From Pseudomonadota bacterium (GTDB taxonomy: Bacteria > Pseudomonadota > Gammaproteobacteria > Halothiobacillales > Halothiobacillaceae), in the NCBI GenBank assembly GCA_021801265.1, contig JAJYYE010000010.1, positions 434,001-498,000 on the forward strand: a stretch of DNA of 64,000 nt. Reading direction: 5' to 3'. The notes under the pieces were generated by a model. That model searched no databases. It was not told the origin of the DNA and was given only the letters and a program-made list of their open reading frames with translations. Shown one piece after another: positions 21,670-35,000 of this stretch (position 1 is the first letter of the stretch; each line of letters starts with the position of its first letter). The position numbers and the translations under genes were made by a program.

Positions 21670-21812
21670 GCGCATACTAGCAGCCTGCCGCAATGAAGGG
21701 AAATGAGTTAAAAATTGATGCCCCACGCAGATGCCCTGACATTTTGCGCGCCGCCACAGCCTGAGTGGCTCTGATAAACTGCTACATTCTTGTTTTGAAT
21801 ATCGAATACCCT

Positions 21813-23120
21813 ATGCACCCAATACCCGTCCCCACTGAGCTTCCAACCCATTTACAGCCTCTTTTTGCACGCATGAACCACACGGGTGTTCAGCCCGATC
21901 AATGGGATTGCGCTGAAACCGCCGTACTCACCGATTGGCTCTATATTGAGCGCTGGCATGCGGAATTAGCCGATCAAGCCGAGCTGGAATGGCTACTCGC
22001 TTGGCTGCGACCCTGCCACACGGCACGCGCCGTTGAGCTGGCTGATGCCGTGTGTATTTTACGCTTGGAAGCGGGGGAAATTGAGGCTTCAATTGAGTTG
22101 GCGACGTCCTTATTGGCTCAGACCGATGATTTCAGCCTGCGGCACACACTGGCCCTCGCTCTGGCCGCTCAAGGAAACTTGGATCAGGCCATCAGCCAGT
22201 TAGAGCACGCGCTGAACCAGGCAACACATTCGAGTGATGCTGTCATCCCATCCGAACAACGGATTCAAGCATGGCTAGATTTGACGCGATTACTGCAAAA
22301 CAACAAAGCCCTATTCAAGGCGATTCGCCCGGCCAAACAGGCGATCGCCCTGGCGCAGACGCATCAGCAGGATGACTTGTTGATTGAAGCCATCCACGTA
22401 CTGGTCGAGCAACTGATTGATCAAGGCGGCGCAGATGAAGCCTGGGATTTTCTCAAGCCCCTGCTCTCCCGTGAACCAACCGCCTCACAGCAAGCGCTCT
22501 GGACACTCGCCTTTGCCCGGCTTTCGTCGGAATTAACGCCGCCGGACATTAATCAGGGTGCTGCCTGCCTTTTGGCTGCAAGGAACCCCGACCCACTCAT
22601 TAAGCTCATGATCCAGCGCGCCGAATCATCCCAAGATCATCACACCCTCTTGGTCGCATTCATCCTCGGATTGATTTTCCGTGCCCCCATTGACGTGACT
22701 GCCCCCCTGGCGGCGAAACTCCTGCTCCGCGATCACGACCGACAAAGGCGTACCGCACCCTTAATTGCCGCCGCATCGATGGCACTGGCTGAAATTCCGG
22801 ACGAACGCAGCAGCAAACGCGCGCACTGGTACCGCGATGCCATGATGCAACTCATTAGTGTGGCCCAACATCAAGGAATTCCTGAAGCGGCAGTAAAACA
22901 ATGGGCTGAAGATGAGCAATTACTGCTTGAACAGGGGATTATCGAACGTACCTACCAGACGTTAATGCGCGAACTGACGCATATACCGCCTTGGCTGCCT
23001 CAAGCCATCGCACTCAGAGCCACGACGGAGTTGTTGGTCATAGGCGCCCCAAGAGACGCCAAAGCACCATATTTGGCTGAGCCAACCGATAAAAATGGCT
23101 CAAAACCCTCACGTACGTAG
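21813..23120 (+). CDS. Uncharacterised helical-repeat (TPR-like) protein
   Basis: I do not recognise this protein. From the ATG at 21813 it has 435 residues, no signal peptide and no membrane segment, so it is probably cytoplasmic. It is almost entirely alpha-helical and rich in Ala, Leu and Gln. The region of about residues 75-160 (RLEAGEIEASIELATSLL, then HTLALALAAQGNLDQAISQLEHAL) has the spacing of tetratricopeptide repeats, and further helix pairs follow to about 240. Such folds usually serve protein contacts. An upstream ATG at 21765 would add 16 residues reading through likely leader. No strong ribosome binding site decides the start. It is divergent from rnpB with no operon partner. 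Confidence 0.7.
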   Translation: MHPIPVPTELPTHLQPLFARMNHTGVQPDQWDCAETAVLTDWLYIERWHAELADQAELEWLLAWLRPCHTARAVELADAVCILRLEAGEIEASIELATSLLAQTDDFSLRHTLALALAAQGNLDQAISQLEHALNQATHSSDAVIPSEQRIQAWLDLTRLLQNNKALFKAIRPAKQAIALAQTHQQDDLLIEAIHVLVEQLIDQGGADEAWDFLKPLLSREPTASQQALWTLAFARLSSELTPPDINQGAACLLAARNPDPLIKLMIQRAESSQDHHTLLVAFILGLIFRAPIDVTAPLAAKLLLRDHDRQRRTAPLIAAASMALAEIPDERSSKRAHWYRDAMMQLISVAQHQGIPEAAVKQWAEDEQLLLEQGIIERTYQTLMRELTHIPPWLPQAIALRATTELLVIGAPRDAKAPYLAEPTDKNGSKPSRT

Positions 23121-23873: not shown

Positions 23874-25301
23874 TCACACGAACGTATCAAGACGCCATAC
23901 CGAATTTATTTTCTGCAGCGCACCTTCTGCCGACATCCCATTATCTGTCTCAATACCCGAAGCATTGAGATGAGGTACGCCCTGTCCATTACCCAGGGAG
24001 GACTGGCCAAAACCCGACGATTGGCCCGTGTTTTGATCTTGGGCCATCGTGTGATTTTGCGCACTGTCCTGACCATTACTGGTCACGCTAACTTGCGCAT
24101 TACTCAAGCCCGCATCCTGCAACCATTCTCGCAGTCGCGGCATGGCTTGATCCAACACATCACGAGTCAGATGATGGGACGCCATAATCTGAATTTGTAT
24201 TTGATCACGCTGTTGATCAATCGTGATTTTAAGCGGCCCTAAATTCGCGGGATTAATCTCCAATGTCGCGCGCGACATATTTTTCCCGACCATCCATTGA
24301 ATGTGTTGCCCCATATCTGCCGCCATTTTCGGCTGATTCAAATCCAGTGTGCCAGGCAAGGTAGTCCAAACTGAATTCCCGGCGATTGACCCAAAGCCTG
24401 CTGACGGCATATTCACCGCCGTTAATCCTGAGGGCAATCCACTGGCCGAGAGAGGGGGGGTGTCCGGTAATTGCGTGGTCAAACCTTGATTTTCTTGGCC
24501 CTTCGCGGGAGTGATCAAAGCAGCGACACTCGCAATTTGTGCGGCTACTGCCTGAGTGGCCACACTCAGCATCGGGAATTGATTGGTGTTATTGATCGGC
24601 GTGCTAGACTCACCCGCATGATTAACCGTATTCGGGTTGTTATTCTGCGGAGTTAACCCATTATTTTTTTGGTTAACCGTCATGCCGTATTGATTAAGCA
24701 AGTCGCTGTGCGAATTAACGCCGGTTTGGGCGAAAGTGGCTTGTGGTGCCGCCTGGCTCAACCATTGGCCGAAATTAAGGGCAGCGGCTTGCACTTGCGT
24801 ACTCCACGCATCACTGCCTGGATCATGTTGTGCTAGAAGCGTCTGGAGTTGATCCAACTGTGCCCGCAAATCGGTCAGTGTTTTCGCGTTGAACGTGCCG
24901 TTATTTGACGTTTGGCCGGATGTCAACCCAAACACGGATGTCAGCACCGCCAATTGTTGCTGGAGGGATTTTAAGCCTTCTTGCGCTTGTGCCGTCAACG
25001 GCGGGCTTTGGGTCAGCAGGGTATTAATTTTTGCTTGCAACAGTGCGCACTGCGCTTGAGCGTCGGTGATATTCCCGCTGGCCGCTGCCTGAATTTTTAT
25101 AGCAGTTGATGTTGATACCAAGCCTGTTCCATCGGCCGAGTTGGCTGGGACAGGCGTTTGCGCCTGTATGGCGCCCGTCATCAACTGAGCAAAATCCCCA
25201 TTGTTTCCTTGTGCCACTTTCAACGACCCGCTCGAATTTGAATCCGATCGGGCACCGGTCGCGGCTGTCGTGCCCGCAATTACGCTATTCATTGTGGCCA
25301 T
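23874..25301 (-). CDS. fliK: Flagellar hook-length control protein FliK
   Basis: Secreted ruler that sets hook length and triggers the FlhB switch to filament export. The 475-residue protein has a long Gln/Asn/Ser/Thr-rich central part of low complexity, typical of FliK. The conserved C-terminal Flg_hook domain (about residues 330-410) includes MSRATLEINPANLGPLKITI and LREWLQDAGLSNAQVSV. GAGGAG lies 8 bases before the ATG. It is the last gene of the fliEFGHIJK run, 17 bp after fliJ. Confidence 0.92.
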   Translation of the reverse strand: MATMNSVIAGTTAATGARSDSNSSGSLKVAQGNNGDFAQLMTGAIQAQTPVPANSADGTGLVSTSTAIKIQAAASGNITDAQAQCALLQAKINTLLTQSPPLTAQAQEGLKSLQQQLAVLTSVFGLTSGQTSNNGTFNAKTLTDLRAQLDQLQTLLAQHDPGSDAWSTQVQAAALNFGQWLSQAAPQATFAQTGVNSHSDLLNQYGMTVNQKNNGLTPQNNNPNTVNHAGESSTPINNTNQFPMLSVATQAVAAQIASVAALITPAKGQENQGLTTQLPDTPPLSASGLPSGLTAVNMPSAGFGSIAGNSVWTTLPGTLDLNQPKMAADMGQHIQWMVGKNMSRATLEINPANLGPLKITIDQQRDQIQIQIMASHHLTRDVLDQAMPRLREWLQDAGLSNAQVSVTSNGQDSAQNHTMAQDQNTGQSSGFGQSSLGNGQGVPHLNASGIETDNGMSAEGALQKINSVWRLDTFV

Positions 25302-25318: not shown

Positions 25319-25771
25319 TTAAATACTCAGCGGGTTCTGCCGAAGCTGTGCGGCATGCGCATCATTAACCCCTTGTTCTTGCTTACCCTGGATTCGATTG
25401 CGCTCGACTTCAAACCGCCCGCGTAATTTTCCCACCGAGCGGTGTTGGCTATTGGCTTCGGCCGCCGTATTCTGGCAAGCCAACAACTCCGCCTCGATTT
25501 GCGCCACCACCGTTTTTTGGTGTTCGATGGTTTGCTCAATTTTGCCCATGAACGCACGGTAATTTTGCAAGGCGAATGCCTGACTGCTCCCACCTGCTGC
25601 AAACCCGAGTCCGGCGGCATACTCCTGCAAATAATCGCTTAATTGTTGCAGGCGGGCGTGTTGCTCATCTAAGCGCTGCTGACAATGCACGACGGCATCC
25701 TTAGCCAGTGCGGCGCCGTGTTCGGTGATTTTTTCCACACCTTTAACTCGGTCAATACGCTGTTGATTCAT
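25319..25771 (-). CDS. fliJ: Flagellar export protein FliJ
   Basis: Coiled-coil stalk protein (150 residues) of the flagellar type III export ATPase complex, placed in the centre of the FliI hexamer. Almost the whole sequence is predicted helix with heptad-like Leu/Ala spacing and many Gln, Arg and Glu, as in the family; sequence identity in FliJ is always low. An AAGGAG site precedes the ATG. Position between fliI and fliK supports the call. Confidence 0.9.
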   Translation of the reverse strand: MNQQRIDRVKGVEKITEHGAALAKDAVVHCQQRLDEQHARLQQLSDYLQEYAAGLGFAAGGSSQAFALQNYRAFMGKIEQTIEHQKTVVAQIEAELLACQNTAAEANSQHRSVGKLRGRFEVERNRIQGKQEQGVNDAHAAQLRQNPLSI

Positions 25772-25794
25772 GGTTGGCGCTCCTTAGAACCTGT

Positions 25795-27234
25795 TCACGC
25801 TGTGTGCATTAAGGCTTCAAGTTGATCAATGCTGCTATCCAAATCAGCCTGTTCATGGATGGACTGGCGCAGAAAGGCTTCTAAATCCGGCTGCACATCA
25901 ATAGCGCGATCAAGTCGCACATCATGCCCTCGACGATACGCGCCTACTGCCAGCAAGTCCCGACTTTGATTGTAGGTACTCATCAGTTGCTTGAAGCGCT
26001 GCATTAAATCCAGGTGCTCAGGGGAGACCAGAACAGGCATCAATCGCGATATTGAGGCTTCAATATCAATTGCGGGGTAACGTCCCCGTTCAGCAATGGC
26101 CCGCGAGAGCACAATATGTCCATCTAAAATTGCACGGGCCGCATCGGCAATCGGCTCGTTCTGATCGTCGCCTTCGACCAGCACGGTATAAAATGCGGTC
26201 ATGCTCCCGATGGTTGACTCACCATTACCGGCCCGCTCAACCAAAGCAGGCAGTTTGGCAAATACCGAGGGCGGATAGCCTTTGGTGGCCGGCGGCTCGC
26301 CAATGGCCAACCCAATCTCGCGCTGCGCTTGGGCATAGCGGGTCAGTGAATCCATCAACAGCAAAACGTCCAAACCCTGCTCGCGGAAATACTCAGCAAT
26401 TGCCGTGGCTAAATTCGCCCCGTGCATGCGCATCAGGGGTGAGGCATCTGCGGGCGCAGCAATCACAATGGCGCGTGAACGCGCTTCGTCATCCAGAATC
26501 TCTGCCACGAACTCGCGTACTTCGCGCCCCCGCTCACCAATCAGCCCCACCACAATAATATCGGCACTGGTGTACCGGGTCATCATGCCCAATAGCACGC
26601 TTTTACCCACGCCGCTGCCCGCAAAAATACCCATACGCTGGCCGCGGCCCACGGTGAGCAGGGCATTAATTGCCCGCACGCCGACATCCAGCGGCTCCCG
26701 AATGGGACGGCGTTTGAGTGGGTTATTGATTCGCCCTTGCAAATCCACTGGCGTATCGCCCTGCAACGCCGGGCCATCATCCAGCGGATGCCCGCGGGCA
26801 TCCAAAACACGCCCCAGCAATTCAGGCCCCAGCGGCACGCGGATAGCAGTGCCCAGATTTTTCACCCGACAACCCGGCGCAATACCGCGCAGCGCTTCCA
26901 ACGGCATTAAGTAGGTATTACGTTCGGCGAATCCCACCACTTCTGCATCCACACAACGCCCTTCGTCAGGATTGATCGGCAGATAACCTATGGGTGCATC
27001 AGGTTCGTCCAGATAAATACGACATTGATCGCCGATGGCAGCCGTCAACCCGCTGGCTTCCAACGCCAGGCCGACCACGCGCACAATACGACCCTCCGAT
27101 TGCAACATCGGCCGTTGAACCCGCGCCTGCAAACCCACCAGGTGACGCGCCCAGTCCAGACCCTGGGGCAGGCCGCGCAGACCGGGCGGATCAAACACAG
27201 CAGGATCAGGCTGCAGCGAATGCGGACTATTCAT
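25795..27234 (-). CDS. fliI: Flagellum-specific ATPase FliI
   Basis: Hexameric ATPase related to F1-beta that energises substrate delivery to the flagellar export gate. The Walker A loop GSGVGKS is at residues 206-212, Walker B is in [19 protein letters not shown], and [25 protein letters not shown] is the type III ATPase signature. It is 479 residues long. The start overlaps fliH by ATGA. The stop codon lies within a 12-base match to the ends of the dispersed repeat (see findings). Confidence 0.97.
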
Positions 27235-28115
27235 TGCTTCGGCTCAACACGGTCAGATAAATCCCCAGATAAAACATCACGCTTAACCGAGCGTGCTTGC
27301 AGTACGGTAGCAGCATCCGAACCGGCGTGAGGTACATTATCTTGAGGCACATTACCTATGGCCTCTGCGGGGCCGGGCACCAGCTCGCCTAATACCCTCA
27401 AGCATAATGCCGCCCAGCGTGCGTCCAATGTTGCATCCACTTCGGCCTGAACCCCCCCGGTGGTGGATTCCACCCGCAGACCACCGGGCGCGATGGCGAC
27501 CTCGCCACGCACGTGAATCTCGCCACCGCCCCGCATCTCCAGTCCGCCATCGGCGATGGCGGACTGCAACATCTCGACTTCATCAGGATGGCAAATCAGC
27601 GTCACTGCACGCACGGCGACCGGTAAAGCCGACAGCGCTGCGCGTGCCACCACATCAATCTGCTCAGGCTTCAGCGTTAACTCACGGTAAATCAGGGCAC
27701 GCGCCATTTGTGTGGCGAGCCGTGCCAATTGCGTCCCCACCTCACGATCAAGATCCGCTAACGGTGTCGCCAAGTGCTGTAACCAGCCCAGCAAGCGGCG
27801 TTGCATTTGGGTAATTTCGTCCTGTGCAGCGGCTAACCCTTCAGTTCGCCCTGCCGAAAATCCGGCCTGTGCGCCTTCTCGTTGACCTTGAGCAAAGCCC
27901 GCTTGTGCTGCTTCCTGGCGGATTTGCGCCAAGTGTGCAGATTCTTGCGCCGAAGCGGGGTCGGTTAGGGTGGTGTCTGGGGGCAATTCAGGCTCTGGCG
28001 CATCGAAATCCGGCAAAGCCCATGCCGCAACCGCGTAATCAAGGCTTACGGGACGAACGACGGGCGAAGGTAACTCATCTGCTGGCGCGGCAGGATTAAA
28101 CGAACTGTTCACCAC
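27231..28115 (-). CDS. fliH: Flagellar assembly protein FliH
   Basis: Regulator of FliI that links the ATPase to the C-ring through FliN. It has 294 residues: a Pro/Glu-rich N-terminus, a helical middle with glycine-spaced repeats ([30 protein letters not shown], the family's GxxxG-like stretch), and a C-terminal domain homologous to V/F-ATPase stalk subunits ([17 protein letters not shown]). The start is GTG at 28115 or the next GTG at 28112, both after AGGGGGC, and the gene overlaps the end of fliG by about 20 bases. Confidence 0.9.
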
Positions 28116-29136
28116 CGCCCCCTAAACTAATCTTGCCGTCATCGGCCAATTTGCGTGCGGCCTGCAGGATGTCTTTTTGCGCACCCTCAACATCTGAAAG
28201 CTTGGTTGGCCCCAAAGACTCAAGATCGTCGCGCATCATCTCTGAAGCTCGTTTGGACATATTCTTGAAGAATTTTTCCTTGAGCTCGGGGTCTGCGCCT
28301 TTCATGGCCAGCAGCAACCGATCGGACGGCACTTCGCGCAGGATGGTTTGAATACCACGATCATCCACATCGATCAAATTACCGAACACAAACATCAAAT
28401 CTTCAATTTTGCTGCCCAAATCGGCATCGGTGGATTTAATTGCACCCATCACCGTTTCTTCGACACTGCCTTCGAGGAAGTTCATGATACCCGCGGCAAT
28501 TTTCACACCGCCGACTTTTGAGGATTTACCGCCGCCAGCGCCAGAAACCTGACGCTCCATAATGTCATCCAGTTCTTGCAGTGCTTGCGGGGATACCCCA
28601 TCGAGATGCGCAATTCGGAGCATGATGTCCGCACGCATGTTTTCGGGCAGCATTTGCAGAATTTCAGCACCCTGGTCGCTTTCCAGGTGCGACAACACAA
28701 TGGCGATAATTTGCGGATGCTCATAGCGGATAATTTCAGCAATGGAGCGCGGATCCATCCATTTAAGAAACTCCAGATTACGCCGATTGCCGGTCGAGGT
28801 GATTCGATCGAGCAGCCCTGCCGCCTTATCCTCACCCAGCGCGCGGTTAAGCACATTGCGGATATAGTCGCTGGTGCCCAGGGCCAAGCCGGTTTGATCA
28901 CCCAAATCGAGCACAAATTGGTCCAGTATCGCCTGAATTTGTGAGCGGGTAACATTGGGCAGCATCGCCATGGCTTGCCCAATTTTTTGCACTTCACGTG
29001 GATCAAGTTGGGTAAATAATTGCGCCGCCGATTCCTCGCCCAGCGCCATCATCAAAATAGCGACCCGCTCGGGGCCTTTCAAACCGGCGATCAGCTCTTT
29101 GTCATTACTGACTTCTTTCACGGGGGCTTCAGCCAT
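28096..29136 (-). CDS. fliG: Flagellar motor switch protein FliG
   Basis: C-ring protein that transmits torque from the stators to the MS ring. The 346-residue protein has the N-terminal FliF-binding domain (GPERVAILMMALGEESAAQLFTQL), the middle domain with the EHPQ motif (RYEHPQIIAIVLSHL) that contacts FliM, and the C-terminal torque helix with alternating charges (KNMSKRASEMMRDDLESLGP). The ATG at 29136 is preferred because GGAG lies ahead of it and it starts two bases after the fliF stop; the upstream start at 29160 lies inside fliF. Confidence 0.96.
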   Translation of the reverse strand: MAEAPVKEVSNDKELIAGLKGPERVAILMMALGEESAAQLFTQLDPREVQKIGQAMAMLPNVTRSQIQAILDQFVLDLGDQTGLALGTSDYIRNVLNRALGEDKAAGLLDRITSTGNRRNLEFLKWMDPRSIAEIIRYEHPQIIAIVLSHLESDQGAEILQMLPENMRADIMLRIAHLDGVSPQALQELDDIMERQVSGAGGGKSSKVGGVKIAAGIMNFLEGSVEETVMGAIKSTDADLGSKIEDLMFVFGNLIDVDDRGIQTILREVPSDRLLLAMKGADPELKEKFFKNMSKRASEMMRDDLESLGPTKLSDVEGAQKDILQAARKLADDGKISLGGGGEQFV

Positions 29137-29138
29137 GA

Positions 29139-30935
29139 TTAGCTCTCCGAATGCGTCCATTGTTTAATCACCGAGGCCACCGCCTTGGGATCATGGTTAA
29201 TACTTTGCTTTAATTGACGTAATTTATCAGCGTAACTCGCCGTACCAATCAACTGCGGCACGCCATCCAGATTATTGAGATCATCTTCAGGCACGGTAGC
29301 GGCGATTGCACCCGCCTGACGACCGAGTGTCACCTGCACACCCTCCTCGCTCAAGTTCGGCGTGCCATCCGACAGTGCCATGGCGGGCTCATGCGCCAAC
29401 GCGGCCACCGGTTTGGCTTTTTCGGTCAGCATCTTGAGCAAGGGCCGAACCACCATCAGGAAAATCAGCAACATTGCCACGCCCAAACCTAAATTTTTCA
29501 GCAAAGGCATAAACCAAGCCTGCGCCCAGAGCGGGATCGAAACCTTTTCGATTTTTTGCTCAACAAACGGAATACTGGCCAGCGTCAATTTATCGCCGCG
29601 TTGCTCGTTCAAACCTACCGCCTGAGCAACCAAATCTTTAATCCGCGTGATTTCCGCTTCAGTCATCGGCTCAGGGGTGACTTTGCCGTCTTTATCCGTC
29701 GTGGTTTTCTCATCGAGCAACACCGCTACATTCAGCTTATCGACCGCGCCGCTGGCGTATTGAGTATGCCGTATCTCTTTATCGACATTGTAATTACGTG
29801 TTTCGTTTTTTTGCGTACTGATCGGCGTTTGCACAATTTGCTGATACTGCGGCACAGTCAGGTTTCCCGGCGGTTGCAGGCCACCAGCGGTTTGCGGGGT
29901 GACGGTACCGCCGCCGGGCGGTTGATTGGACAATGCGCCCGGCACGCCGCCGTTAATACCCTGATCACCCAGCGCGCGGGTGGTATCGTTGGTTTGCTCA
30001 CTCAAAATAACGCCGGTTTTCGGACCATAGCGTTCGCTGGTGCCTTCTTGGCGGGCAAAATCGATATCTGCCGACACTTGCGCACGCACCCGATCGGCGC
30101 CCACCACGGGGGTCAACAAGGCTTCAATCTGGCGGGCATAAGCACGCTCGACGCGTTGGCGATAGGCGAACTGTTTATCGGTCAAGCCCATGCCACTGGC
30201 ATCGTCAGAATTTTGACTCAGTAATTCACCGCGCTGATCAATCACACTCACATTCGCCGGTTTCATCCCCGCCACGCTGGAGGCCACCAAATGCACGATG
30301 GCGCGAACCTGTTCGGCACTCAGCGGCTGCCCCGGCGATAATTCCACCACCACCGAAGCGGTGGGCGGCTGCTGTTCACGCACAAAAACTGATTGCTTGG
30401 GCGTGGCTAAATGCACCCGCGCCGCCGAAACGCCTTGAATGGTTTCAATCGAACGCGCCAATTCAATTTCAATCGCATGTTGATAGCGCGCCTGCTCGAC
30501 AAACTGGCTGGTGCCGAGTGACTGATCTTTATTGAGCATCTCAAGCCCGACACCATCCCCTGCGGGCAGGCCTTGACCGGCCAACAACATGCGAATGGCA
30601 GGCAACTGGCTGGGGTCAACCAACACGGCCCCACTGGGGCTTAGTTGATAGGTTTGCTTGGCCGTACGCAAGGCATCGACCACCGTCGCCGACTCTTTAG
30701 GGCCAAGGTTGGTATACAGCGGCACCAACGAAGGCTTTTGCCCCCATAAAAAGAAACCCACCATAAAGGAAATCGTCGCGGCCAATGCCACCAGAACCAA
30801 CAATTGGCGGAAACTGGACGATTGCGTGATGCCATCCATTTGCCGCACCCAGCCGGGGGTTTGTGCGGCAAATGGGGGCGATTGCGGGATTGACGAGGAT
30901 GTCATTGAACCGGGAGTCATCGAATTTTGCGCCAT
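29139..30935 (-). CDS. fliF: Flagellar MS-ring protein FliF
   Basis: Forms the membrane ring on which the basal body and export gate assemble. The 598-residue protein has two membrane helices, at about residues 44-65 and 470-490. Between them lie the YscJ/FliF ring-building motifs (LYTNLGPKESATVVDALRTAKQTYQL, ARVHLATPKQSVFVREQQPPTASVVV). The short cytoplasmic C-terminus (LRQLKQSINHDPKAVASVIKQWTHS) is the FliG-binding tail. It follows fliE by 18 bp and is coupled to fliG. Confidence 0.97.
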   Translation of the reverse strand: MAQNSMTPGSMTSSSIPQSPPFAAQTPGWVRQMDGITQSSSFRQLLVLVALAATISFMVGFFLWGQKPSLVPLYTNLGPKESATVVDALRTAKQTYQLSPSGAVLVDPSQLPAIRMLLAGQGLPAGDGVGLEMLNKDQSLGTSQFVEQARYQHAIEIELARSIETIQGVSAARVHLATPKQSVFVREQQPPTASVVVELSPGQPLSAEQVRAIVHLVASSVAGMKPANVSVIDQRGELLSQNSDDASGMGLTDKQFAYRQRVERAYARQIEALLTPVVGADRVRAQVSADIDFARQEGTSERYGPKTGVILSEQTNDTTRALGDQGINGGVPGALSNQPPGGGTVTPQTAGGLQPPGNLTVPQYQQIVQTPISTQKNETRNYNVDKEIRHTQYASGAVDKLNVAVLLDEKTTTDKDGKVTPEPMTEAEITRIKDLVAQAVGLNEQRGDKLTLASIPFVEQKIEKVSIPLWAQAWFMPLLKNLGLGVAMLLIFLMVVRPLLKMLTEKAKPVAALAHEPAMALSDGTPNLSEEGVQVTLGRQAGAIAATVPEDDLNNLDGVPQLIGTASYADKLRQLKQSINHDPKAVASVIKQWTHSES

Positions 30936-30953
30936 GATTTTTTATCTCAATAC

Positions 30954-31286
30954 TTAAATGGGCATGTTCAGGACATCTTGGTAGGCCTGTACCAAGCGAT
31001 TGCGCACTTGCAAAGTCGCGTTGAACCCTAAGGAAGCTTTTTGTCCGGCCAGCATCACTTGAGTGAGATCGACATTCGGATCACCCAATTCAAACCGGGT
31101 TTTCAGTTCAGAGGAGTTGTGCTGCAAATCATTCACTTGCCCAATGGCCCGCGTCAATAATGACGAAAAAGAAGCGCCGCCTGCAGGGGGGGTTACCGGT
31201 GTCGGCTCGGCAATCTGCTGCTGGGCATTGGTGCGCATGACCCGCATTTGCGACAGGATTTGATCGACTGACATTCCGCTACTCAT
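30954..31286 (-). CDS. fliE: Flagellar hook-basal body protein FliE
   Basis: Small exported protein (110 residues) joining the MS ring to the proximal rod. The C-terminal half has the family pattern SFSSLLTRAIGQVNDLQHNSSELKTRFELGDPNVDLTQVMLAGQKASLGFNATLQVRNRLVQAYQDVLNMPI. First gene of the fliEFGHIJK operon; the sigma-54 site at 31349-31363 lies about 65 bp upstream. Confidence 0.96.
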   Translation of the reverse strand: MSSGMSVDQILSQMRVMRTNAQQQIAEPTPVTPPAGGASFSSLLTRAIGQVNDLQHNSSELKTRFELGDPNVDLTQVMLAGQKASLGFNATLQVRNRLVQAYQDVLNMPI

Positions 31287-31545: not shown

Positions 31546-33075
31546 TCAGGCAATGAGCTCATCCTCATCCGACTTTGCACTGATATGATATTTGCGGAGT
31601 TTTTCGACCAGCGTCGTTCGGCGCACACCCAGCTGCCGCGCAGCCTGCGCCACCACGCCGTGATGCTGAGTGAGCGCTTGCTCAATCCAGGCCCGCTCAA
31701 TCGCTTCAAGCAGCGCTTTTAAATCAAACCCCGATTCGGGCAGCACGCACTGGCACTGTTCCAGCGCAAACACATCGGCGGGCAAATGCCATGTGGCCGC
31801 ACGCTGCGCCGACATTTGCCCTGAGGCAAACATCTCACGGGGGTCTACATCCAGTGGCGTTGTCGGACTCGGAACCGACTCGGTCTGCGGAGGGATGGGA
31901 TTTGCGGGTTCCGGCAGGGCGACGTACTGTGGCGGCAACCAATCAGGCGGTAATTGACGGCAGAGTTTTTCCGGTAACTGTGCGACATCCACGGGGTGTG
32001 CAGGGTATAAAATCCCCAGCCGTTCAATTATATTGCTGAGTTCCCGCACATTACCCGGCCACGGTAAAACGGCCAGCGCGGCCAACGCGGCATCGGTCAA
32101 GTGCGCTACGGGGCGGCCTTCCCGCCTGAACCTCTGCCCCAAGGCATGGATAATCAGCGGAATATCCGCCCGCAAATCCCGTAGCGGCAAGGTTTCCAAC
32201 GGAAAGACATTCAGTCGGTAATATAAATCCTGTCGAAAGCTGCCCTCGGCAATGCACGCATCCAAATCCCGATGGGTAGCGGCAATAATTCGCACATCCG
32301 CATTCAAGGTTTGCCGCCCACCGACCCGCTCAAACGTGCGCTCCTGCAATACCCGCAGAATTTTTACCTGCATCGGCAACGGCATATCCCCAATTTCATC
32401 CAGAAATAGGGTGCCGCCTTCGGCCAGTTCAAACCGCCCTGGCCGGGCACTCATGGCGCCGGTAAATGCACCTTTTTCATGGCCGAATAATTCAGACTCC
32501 AGCAATTCTGCCGGAATTGCGCCACAGTTGATGGGTACGAACGGTTTGACGGATCGATTCGACAGCCGATGAATCATCCGTGCCACCACTTCTTTGCCCG
32601 TGCCGGATTCACCCAGAATGAGGACCGTGGCATCAGAGGGTGCGACTTGCTCAATTTCGGCACGCAACTGGCGCATGGCCGCGCTCTCGCCCACTAATCC
32701 GTGCCCTGCAGCCACCAACTGTTCACCCCGCCAGCGGCTGAGCAAGCGATTCACGACTGACTGCAACCCCGCCAATGTGCAAGGCCAAGTCAACGTGGCA
32801 AAAGGCGCCTGCGGCTGCCCCAGCCAACGGGCAGGATCGGCATCCAGGGCGATCCAGGGGTATGGATGCCTAGTGGCACGACTGAGTCGCTCGGCGCATG
32901 CTTCACCCACACAAAAACCCGCCATCACCGGCTGATTGACAAGATCTGAATTTTCCGGGTCGGAAAGAGCGGAGCGTTCTACCGCCTGCACGCCCAACAA
33001 ATTGAGCCAAGTCGTTAAATCAGCCATGATATGCGACGGCGCATCAATCAATGCGCACGGCTGAAGATCAGACAT
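31546..33075 (-). CDS. fleQ: Sigma-54-dependent flagellar master regulator FleQ/FlrA
   Basis: Bacterial enhancer-binding protein of 509 residues. The N-terminal 120 residues are an atypical receiver-like FleQ domain without the usual phosphorylation pocket. The AAA+ domain has Walker A GESGTGKE at 155-162, the sigma-54 contact loop GAFTGA at 202-207 and Walker [11 protein letters not shown] at 221-230. The C-terminal helix-turn-helix reads [29 protein letters not shown], nearly the FleQ signature. In Pseudomonas FleQ is the top activator of flagellar genes and binds c-di-GMP. Here it lies directly upstream of fliE with no fleS/fleR two-component pair between. Whether it binds c-di-GMP here is inference. 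Confidence 0.93.
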
Positions 33076-33417
33076 AATTAGCAGCTCCCTAAAGTATGAA
33101 ATCCTGAGAACCTGTCAAGGTCTCGCTGAAGCGCACATCCTGTTCTCACGCCTCTCCCGCTACGCGGGAGAGGCGTGAGAAGCATCACTTGATCAAGACC
33201 TTGAACAGGTTCTTAAACTGAGCGCACAATGGCACATGAGTAAAGGTTGGGTGGTAAACCCTAACCGCCGCCGCGCCAACTGTCAAAATTTTGTCGGCAG
33301 AATTTGTCAGGATCAATGGACAGGGCAAGTCGGCTTGACTGTTTATCCTTTCATCGGCATTCATGCGTAACCCTTGACTCAACCAAGTACCCAACCTGGA
33401 ACCATGGATCATGCCCC
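33076..33417. other. Intergenic region between fleQ and the fliK-like gene
   Basis: A divergent promoter region of 342 bp holding the 107-bp inverted-repeat element at 33107-33213. The rest shows no ORF with family resemblance. No clear sigma-54 or sigma-28 site was recognised for either gene. Confidence 0.5.
33107..33213. repeat. Dispersed inverted-repeat element, copy B (short form)
   Basis: It starts AGAACCTGTCAAGGTCTCG and ends CAAGACCTTGAACAGGTTCT, a terminal inverted repeat. The centre is a perfect 16-bp stem with a 3-nt loop (33145-33179). The same termini and subterminal blocks are found in opposite orientation at 21111-21283. There is no coding capacity, so any mobility would need a transposase from elsewhere. 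Confidence 0.8.
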
Positions 33418-34650
33418 ATGTACGTTAACCGCGCGCCCACCGCCAACACCACCACCGAATTACGCGGTGTGCCGCTCAAAATCGGGCAAACGCTGGCAGC
33501 TATTGTGCTGCAAGCCAATCAGGCCACGGGCAAGGCCGTGCTCTCGCTCGCGGGCGGGCAATTAACCGTACAAACCCAGCAACCACTCATCCCCGGCAGC
33601 GTCCTTAAACTCACGGTGCGTGAACTCGGACCACCGCTGGTTTTAGGGCTGATACCCGATGTCGCCACACCCAACCAAGGCACGAGCGGTGGGGGGCGAA
33701 GCCCAGTACAGAATCTGTTATCGCAGCTGTTGCAACAGCTCACGGTCAGCAACGCAAGCAGCCAAGCTGCAAGCGGCTCAAACAACCCAGCTCAAACAGC
33801 CCAAGCGACGCCAAACCCCGCGCGAGCCGCGGCATCCTCAACTCAATCAGCCAATCCACCAGCGACCTTCGTGGCATCAAGCCCGCAGACCGAAACAGCA
33901 CAACTTCCTGCCGCTTTGCGTGCCGCCCTGCCCAACCTCAGCTTGCTGTTGGCGGGGGATGCCACCTCAAACCCAGCGCACAGCCCCGCCCACTTCTTGG
34001 CACAATTAGTCAGCCACTTAAGTGTGCCGAATTCTGCGCAGCTACCCGAATCGGAGCGGCTGCCTACCGATGTCAAAACCCAACTCAAACTGGCGGCAGC
34101 CGCACTAAAAATTCAGATAAAAACCGAGCAACCACCCGCCCAGTTGACCGAACCAAGCCGAGCGGCACAAACCACCCTGCAGGCGAGCCTTGATCAATGG
34201 CTCAATCGGCTCGACATCAGCCAACTGCGCACGGCCATTCAGCAAATGCAAGGGCAACCCACCTGGGTGGTTGATATGCCCGTGCTTATCCAAGATCAGC
34301 CTCAACGCTTCCAGCTGGCCATTCATGAGGAGCGGGAACCGAATGCAGGTTCTGAAACACCGTCAACCTGGCAACTGGATTTCGCCGTGGAATTACCGAA
34401 CTTGGGCGCGGTACATGGGAGTGTACGCTTGCAGGCACTCGACCTCACGGTGCGCCTTTATGCGGATGAACCCAGCGCGCAGGCCCGCTTGACCGGCTCA
34501 CTGACTGAGCTGGCTGCGCATCTGCGCGCCGCCGCGCTCAATCCCACCGAGCTCTCCGTCTACCCTGGGCCACCCCCGAACGCCGTACACAATCGGCTCA
34601 ACCCCGAGCCCGTATTAGACGGCAGCTCAACCTTTCGGCTACAGGTGTAA
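33418..34650 (+). CDS. Second FliK-like protein (Flg_hook C-terminal domain)
   Basis: A 410-residue protein with the layout of FliK: an N-terminal beta-rich part (LKIGQTLAAIVLQANQATGKAVLSLAGGQLTVQTQQPLIPGSVLKLTV), a long Gln/Ala/Ser/Pro-rich middle (about residues 90-240), and a C-terminal domain (about 300-400) that ends LTGSLTELAAHLRAAALNPTELSVYPG, the Flg_hook pattern. The start at 33418 is the most believable; the frame is open to 33304 but that part reads as leader. The next gene, two bases later, is a stand-alone FlhB C-terminal domain. FliK acts on FlhB in ordinary flagella, so the pair makes functional sense, but its role here is inference. Confidence 0.75.
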   Translation: MYVNRAPTANTTTELRGVPLKIGQTLAAIVLQANQATGKAVLSLAGGQLTVQTQQPLIPGSVLKLTVRELGPPLVLGLIPDVATPNQGTSGGGRSPVQNLLSQLLQQLTVSNASSQAASGSNNPAQTAQATPNPARAAASSTQSANPPATFVASSPQTETAQLPAALRAALPNLSLLLAGDATSNPAHSPAHFLAQLVSHLSVPNSAQLPESERLPTDVKTQLKLAAAALKIQIKTEQPPAQLTEPSRAAQTTLQASLDQWLNRLDISQLRTAIQQMQGQPTWVVDMPVLIQDQPQRFQLAIHEEREPNAGSETPSTWQLDFAVELPNLGAVHGSVRLQALDLTVRLYADEPSAQARLTGSLTELAAHLRAAALNPTELSVYPGPPPNAVHNRLNPEPVLDGSSTFRLQV

Positions 34651-34652
34651 GC

Positions 34653-35000
34653 ATGTCACTCCGTCCACCCCATCCATCCCAGCAGGAATCCGGCAAGATT
34701 ACCCGCGCAGTCGCGCTCAAATACGCAGGCACCGATCTGCCCCTGGTAGTCGCAACCGGGCAAAATTTAGTTGCCCAGGAAATCGTACGGCGTGCCGATT
34801 CGGCACAGGTGCCGTTGGTGGAAGACCCCGCACTTGCCCAGGCATTAAGCCAACTGGATGTGGGGGCACATATTCCGGAGGCCCTGTTTCGGGCCGTGGC
34901 GGAAGTATTGAGTTACGCGTTGTATGTGAGCGGCAAGCATGAAGAAGTCCTCCGCCAAACCCAGCAAACCCGTGGGCACAAAAAACCACCCGACGCGTGA
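34653..35000 (+). CDS. FlhB C-terminal-domain homologue (FlhX/FhlB type)
   Basis: A 115-residue cytoplasmic protein equal to the part of FlhB after the autocleavage site: AVALKYAGTDLPLVVATGQNLVAQEIVRRADSAQVPLVEDPALAQALSQLDVGAHIPEALFRAVAEVLSYAL. The membrane domain and the NPTH cleavage motif of FlhB are absent; the protein begins just where the cleaved fragment begins. In other bacteria such proteins can partly replace the FlhB C-terminal domain in export-gate switching. It starts two bases after the FliK-like gene and shares its transcript. A 9-bp hairpin (GTGATTCTG/CAGAATCAC, 34997-35034) spans the convergent ends with xseA but lacks a T run. Confidence 0.85.
   Translation: MSLRPPHPSQQESGKITRAVALKYAGTDLPLVVATGQNLVAQEIVRRADSAQVPLVEDPALAQALSQLDVGAHIPEALFRAVAEVLSYALYVSGKHEEVLRQTQQTRGHKKPPDA

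Follow-up and report, generated by a model that had tools for sequence, protein, structure and literature searches.

The two genes fliK2 and flhB-C stand side by side in the window, by which we mean the whole 64,000-nucleotide stretch of DNA that was analysed, and they very probably make up a single accessory module of the switch for flagellar export specificity, a reading to which we give a probability of about 0.85. It is based on the adjacency of the two genes in 30/30 relatives with a stand-alone FlhB-C, their joint counts in 232 genomes, the one branch that separates the stand-alone CC domains, the docking pocket that is kept, and the decay of the pair where FlhA is gone. Modulation of substrate switching had been named in the original prediction as a possible role, and a link to switching is also the best reading of the present results.

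The locus and its genome

The fliK2 gene (33418..34650, + strand) is an open reading frame with an ATG start that matches the start of the same-genus homologues in an alignment, and it encodes a second FliK-type protein of 410 residues. After a gap of 2 bp it is followed on the same strand by the frame of a stand-alone FlhB C-terminal (CC) domain protein of 115 residues, without NPTH and without a membrane part (34653..35000, +), so that the predicted adjacency of the two frames was found as described. The canonical fliK (23874..25301, − strand; PF02120, E 6.8e-20) ends the run of fliJ, fliI, fliH, fliG, fliF and fliE (25319..31286, −), identified in a Pfam scan of the reading frames, and the expected normal fliK at the close of the fliE operon is therefore present. 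The pair had also been described as divergent from fleQ. A sigma-54-dependent activator with a Fis-type HTH is encoded divergently from the pair at 31546..33075 (−), as seen from its Pfam and NCBIfam domain matches, but the name fleQ comes from its position only, and among the profile matches listed for its product there is no FleQ-specific model. Between mraZ and fliK there is a 451-residue open frame (21765-23120, +) with no Pfam match at 1e-5, which may either encode a new protein or not be a real gene.

A profile search of the whole assembly (2.66 Mb, 99.9% complete) gave two proteins with Flg_hook and, above the cut-off, two with Bac_export_2. One of the latter is a full-length FlhB, and its gene, the sole full-length flhB of the genome, is located away from the window (G000:C7:181833-182855).

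The stand-alone FlhB-C protein

The 115-residue protein matches PF01312 (Bac_export_2) with E 7.6e-19 and 68.5 bits, but only over 73 positions at the end of the profile (262-334 of 335), and the CC domain proper covers residues 19-88 (34707..34916, +). In Foldseek its structure model matches the C-domains of FlhB and EscU, with a best E of 5e-6 and a probability of 1.00 (3b0z, 3b1s), which identifies it as a CC domain; a full FlhB, with membrane part and NPTH, it is not, as its 115 residues hold the CC part only. The start of the protein was predicted to lie just after the point where full FlhB is autocleaved. This is correct in so far as the protein holds only the part past that site, but AVALKY comes only after a tail of 18 residues, and there is no NPTH. 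The motif was found in none of 76 distinct stand-alone proteins as compared to 41 of 49 distinct full-length FlhB, and because it is absent autocleavage is not expected in the stand-alone proteins. The eight full-length FlhB with an altered NPTH place (L072, L073, L104, L123, L125, L146, L147 and L068) have the variants NPMH, NPNH, NPTT, NPTE, NPIR, NPEH, NPVR and NPSH.

Another difference is the residue after ARAL, missing in 71/71 stand-alones and Y, F or H in 49/49 full proteins. The places of the pocket in which early substrates dock, transferred by alignment from Salmonella A286, P287, A341 and L344 as given in PMC13344023, hold A in 50/71 stand-alones (L in the window protein), P in 71/71, A in 71/71, and I or L in 70/71. 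By its residues, the pocket thus appears to be largely kept.

When 71 stand-alone and 49 full-length CC domains, trimmed to begin at the AVAL strand, were placed in a tree, one branch separated the two groups, with support of 99/99, and this branch recurred in each of the 200 bootstrap trees. This is an unrooted tree of a short domain, and according to the tool the bootstrap was not settled. The set was made from 130 collected rows by leaving out five repeats, four rows missed by the trimming pattern, and L054, and the stand-alone sequences of H. pylori, B. subtilis and the Campylobacterota are outside it. An earlier quick tree of 125 rows, with L054 included, agrees (SH-aLRT 99). The window protein groups with the other stand-alones, as a short soluble CC-only protein of the FlhX/YlqH type. 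The tree argues for an old origin of the stand-alone FlhB-C as a lineage apart, not as a copy of the local flhB, and a recent local duplication of flhB was ruled out by the one deep split.

The FliK2 protein

The sole Pfam match of the 410-residue product is to PF02120 (Flg_hook/FliK), with E 1.4e-10 and 41.2 bits at residues 312-388 (34351..34581, +). This is above the curated Pfam cut-off of 29.8 bits, so that FliK2 belongs to the family and the predicted ruler domain is confirmed by profile search. The structure prediction agrees, as the top Foldseek matches are PscP-SS and FliK-C, with probability 1.00 and E values of only 0.012 and 0.033. When the AlphaFold2 model was superposed with VIA-align, the C-domain fitted on PscP-SS (5cuk, Z 6.1) and FliK-C (2rrl, Z 4.9), where a Z below 8 may reflect just a common arrangement.

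In an alignment of FliK2 proteins, a small domain at the N-terminus is followed by a variable middle region and then by the Flg_hook domain. In the model (mean pLDDT 73) the N-terminal barrel and the C-domain are confident and the region between them is poor; residues 21-80 have a pLDDT of 84-91. The barrel, residues 17-84 (33466..33669, +), appears OB-like and superposes weakly on cold-shock, S1 and similar domains (Z 5.0-5.5, below the trusted level), and the N-domain also gave a weak S1 profile match, E 0.095. An HMM of this domain matched 53/53 aligned FliK2 proteins, partly by construction as 21 of the sequences built the HMM and 32 were selected with it, and 0/31 canonical FliK entries, which include the fliK of the window twice. 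Among the upstream proteins of loci from a GTDB scan, 32 had the N-domain at E 1e-3 or better among the matches listed; several others begin at a contig end.

The C-terminal tails differ as well. At position −2, F or Y was observed in 29/30 canonical FliK, whereas none of the 53 FliK2 proteins has an aromatic residue there and 39/53 have R, K or Q; at −4, D is found in 28/30 canonical FliK as compared to 27/53 FliK2. FliK2 of the window ends in RLQV and does not have the canonical tail, if this is defined by the aromatic at −2, a pattern among the 30 canonical FliK compared here. The idea that the pair is a portable copy of the hook-length switch is not supported, given the old lineage of FlhB-C without NPTH and the N-domain and C-tail that set FliK2 apart from canonical FliK.

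Occurrence of the pair

The original prediction made co-occurrence in other genomes a check of the pair, and it was observed at two levels. A stand-alone FlhB-C is present in 30 of 57 relatives, with the genome of the window counted among the 57, and in 30/30 a Flg_hook protein is encoded directly upstream on the same strand, with 19-167 bp between the two domains. When the first ATG is taken as the start, the FliK2 and FlhB-C frames overlap by 4 bp in L038, L040, L043-L047 and L050-L053 of 20 loci. The GTDB scan, made with an FlhB-C alignment, gave at least 80 loci. Among the matches listed, 51 are stand-alone proteins and 29 are full FlhB; a script recognised 26 of the latter, and L091, L109 and L118 were assigned by inspection. 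For the 51 stand-alones in named genomes, and among the same matches, FliK2 was found upstream in 43 by HMM and in L084 and L110 by eye only, while six are without an adjoining FliK2; five of these six hosts are methanotrophs by title. In these split-operon genomes a FliK2-like protein is encoded elsewhere in 5/6, and none was found in G496. At L090, L105 and L143, from two methanotrophs and one proteobacterial MAG, FlhB-C comes directly after a queF-like gene (by eye) and the FliK2-like protein is at another locus. By title, the genomes with a stand-alone protein cover, among others, Gammaproteobacteria, Phyllobacteriaceae, Desulfuromonadales, Hydrogenedentota, Planctomycetota and Capsulimonas.

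Of 232 genomes drawn across the class, 134 match at least one of the two families and 98 match neither. The 129 genomes with both families divide into 82 with at least two of each, 41 with one of each, and 4 and 2 mixed (Fisher p 1.5e-26), where the figures are match counts from related, not independent, genomes and the positions of second matches are known only among the matches listed; some of the second FlhB matches are full-length (G079, G191). The single copies in G059 and G070 are the pair itself, which leaves about 39 of the 41 one-of-each genomes with FlhB and FliK but without the pair, and flagella can thus do without it. Two Flg_hook proteins without a stand-alone FlhB-C were seen in G114 and G242. 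Among the genomes with a single family, G245 has Flg_hook without FlhB, G248 and G089 have an FlhB-type protein without Flg_hook, and G019 has a Flg_hook fragment without FlhA. The pair recurs in many flagellated relatives, and its occurrence is far from chance. Third, weak Flg_hook matches were obtained in six same-genus genomes (E 0.002-0.008); the one locus that was fetched, in G007, places the match just after a flgK-like frame, and it looks like chance. A mirror-tree comparison in 12 genomes gave partial correlations with the stand-alone FlhB-C of 0.42 for FliK2 and 0.45 for canonical FliK, and FliK2 was not singled out.

Short FlhB-C-only proteins are also represented by ylqG-ylqH of B. 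subtilis, NCBIfam TIGR00789 (flhB_rel) and COG2257. Unlike these, the window FlhB-C stays below the TIGR00789 cut-off, 66.5 bits as compared to 117.35, a cut-off that was reached in 0/4 Bacillota genomes searched and 2/14 control genomes. A stand-alone FlhB-C was found in 3/4 of these Bacillota genomes, including Psychrobacillus, where it follows a frame of about 490 residues and precedes a sucC-like gene (by eye), similar to the gene order of B. subtilis, ylqG-ylqH-sucC. Unlike in the window pair, the upstream frames of the Bacillota, about 490 residues long, are barely or not recognisable as FliK: Flg_hook appears in one of three loci, at 28.2 bits against the cut-off of 29.8, and a profile-profile comparison with FliK made from one sequence gave a probability of 1.5. 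The kinship of this frame to FliK rests mostly on gene order.

Connection to the flagellum

The two genomes without FlhA that were looked at closely have a damaged pair. In G059, one contig rated 100% complete, there is no match to FlhA (FHIPEP) or full FlhB, and fliK2 as well as flhB-C is broken by copies of a single 290-bp repeat that are 96% identical. In G253 the FlhB-C is a fragment of 36 residues. G070, which at first seemed to have an orphan pair, does have FlhA. With these two cases of decay, which are not a survey of losses, the fate of the pair seems to follow that of the flagellum.

The G059 locus is flanked by Memo/AMMECR1-like genes on one side and by DUF2802-like and cheW-like genes on the other (named by eye), and che-type genes (also by eye) beside the broken pair are still open (L170 and L184, G059:C1 about 2592000-2595200). 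It can be seen as a snapshot of flagellar loss with the chemotaxis genes retained. Scans of the neighbours, which left out same-genus loci and some others, covered 90 of 127 downstream frames, with DUF2802 in 18, CheW in 12 and FliJ in 6, and 84 of 112 upstream frames, with pentapeptide proteins in 14, AMMECR1 in 8 and CcmB in 5. DUF2802 is the commonest downstream neighbour (18/90; for instance L088:5385-5792) and is a candidate flagellar or chemotaxis protein.

Regulation

In the intergenic region between the fleQ-like gene and fliK2 lies the conserved element TGTCAAAATTTTGTC (33281..33295, +). The pattern TGTCAAAAT[TA]TTGTC was present in 8/8 same-genus fleQ-like/fliK2 intergenic regions examined; nine same-genus genomes have the pair, and G008 is outside the eight regions compared. 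At up to one mismatch the element has a unique place in the whole genome and the backwards control gave 0, and at three mismatches there were 6 matches in the window against 3.86 expected. The published FleQ consensus matches it partially, and the element may be a site of the divergent regulator. Strict sigma-54 and sigma-28 patterns were found in 0/53 regions upstream of fliK2, and loose ones were at the level of shuffled sequences (47/53 against a mean of 44.4, and 1 against 1.1, respectively). In P. putida the pp4328-4329 promoter is reported to be activated 1.8-fold by FleQ (PMC5026340). A term search of the main text of a FleQ ChIP-seq paper found no mention of PP4328 (PMC6120874).

Discussion

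Several known systems are similar to the pair. P. putida pp4328-4329 has, by description, both domain types in one operon (PMC5026340); it is FleQ-dependent, and a fleQ-like gene is encoded divergently from the window pair; the evidence from P. putida is promoter activity, and the likeness to the window pair is one of description. H. pylori HP1575, or FlhX (Cj0848c in C. jejuni), is likewise a stand-alone FlhB C-domain (PMC4894983), and in Nitratiruptor a 'flhX-fliK' is named outside the main flagellar cluster (PMC9321776). HP1575 was put to the test as a spare part, to judge from the title of Wand et al. 2006, unlike FliK2, for which no functional test was found in the open-licence literature, a scope that most subscription papers fall outside. 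With the canonical FliK-FlhB switch of Salmonella the pair shares the Flg_hook/T3S4 domain and the FlhB-CC fold and pocket. It differs in that the window FlhB-C has no autocleavage motif and no membrane part, and in the OB-like N-domain and different C-tail of FliK2.

The Salmonella switch also suggests how the module may work. A 2026 study proposes that the CC domain of FlhB is ejected through an action of the last five FliK residues on it, and that its loss is a regular step of switching (PMC13344023). With FliK-dependent loss of this domain in Salmonella, a CC-FliK pair is the right hardware for a module of this kind. It is conceivable that at the export gate the stand-alone FlhB-CC sits against FlhB-CN/FlhA in the position of the CC domain of FlhB itself, or competes for this position, and that FliK2 uses its C-domain and altered C-tail to load or remove the stand-alone domain. 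In this way the early-substrate mode would be set, held or reset by the pair, beside the FliK-FlhB pair that measures the hook. We infer the action of FliK2 on the stand-alone CC domain and the docking at the gate from the switch of Salmonella and from the report of a 'spare part' in H. pylori, and the pair might act as a second plug, a spare part or a regulator. The missing aromatic at −2 in all 53 FliK2 could, on the other hand, mean that the action on the CC domain has been lost. If the module reading is right, this docking and holding mechanism has in our opinion slightly worse than even odds, and for module and mechanism taken together the odds are about even.

A stand-alone FlhB-CC could instead simply replace a lost or ejected FlhB CC domain so that export continues, with FliK2 as a chaperone or ejector. 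The precedent of HP1575 (the title of Wand et al. 2006), the proposal that CC-domain loss belongs to normal switching (PMC13344023) and the largely retained pocket all fit with such a replacement. The family-specific changes over the deep split, among them the residue after ARAL, rather favour a role of its own than simple interchangeability, and a spare part alone leaves the paired FliK2 unexplained; we consider this rather unlikely. Another alternative is that FliK2 is not exported but binds RNA or some other ligand with its OB-like N-domain, and that FlhB-C reports the export state by binding early subunits, by which hook-gene expression would be coupled to export. The fit of the N-domain to cold-shock and S1 domains, at a Z of about 5, the weak S1 profile match and the largely kept subunit-docking pocket point in this direction, but with a Z under 8 the likeness may be a mere common arrangement, and OB folds take many ligands, which makes this improbable. 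Finally, that the two genes belong to a second type III system, a non-flagellar one, or are a functionless relic is very improbable even though the pair is often found outside the main structural operons, since the frames are open and alignable across several phyla, the pair is disrupted or fragmentary in two genomes without FlhA that were looked at closely (G059, G253), the P. putida promoter is FleQ-dependent (PMC5026340), and a second type III system in the genome of the window was ruled out by the single full-length FlhB; the other type III export function once suggested for the pair is therefore unlikely here.

For the module of the flagellar switch, one can also imagine a more far-reaching version, which we regard as unlikely: a diffusible, non-cleavable second FlhB-CC plug with its own FliK would serve as an extra lock of the export gate in many flagellated bacteria, as a general counterpart of Salmonella's Fluke, and would keep or reset early-substrate export, with the OB-like domain as a timing input.

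The pairing is already in print under other names, as pp4328-4329 of P. putida and as flhX-fliK of the Campylobacterota (PMC5026340 and PMC9321776). The 2026 rework of export switching after hook completion centres on the FliK-dependent removal of FlhB-CC (PMC13344023). A widespread natural pair supplies those two pieces, FliK and FlhB-CC, detached, and is for this reason a direct probe of the 2026 model. The pair is dispensable in evolution, as seen from the approximately 39 flagellated genomes of the class-wide draw without it, and it is a named pair in P. putida, a convenient host. Salmonella is, to our knowledge, without the pair. If the pair is indeed a second lock or reset device, the hook-length control of the Salmonella type would be a simpler special case.
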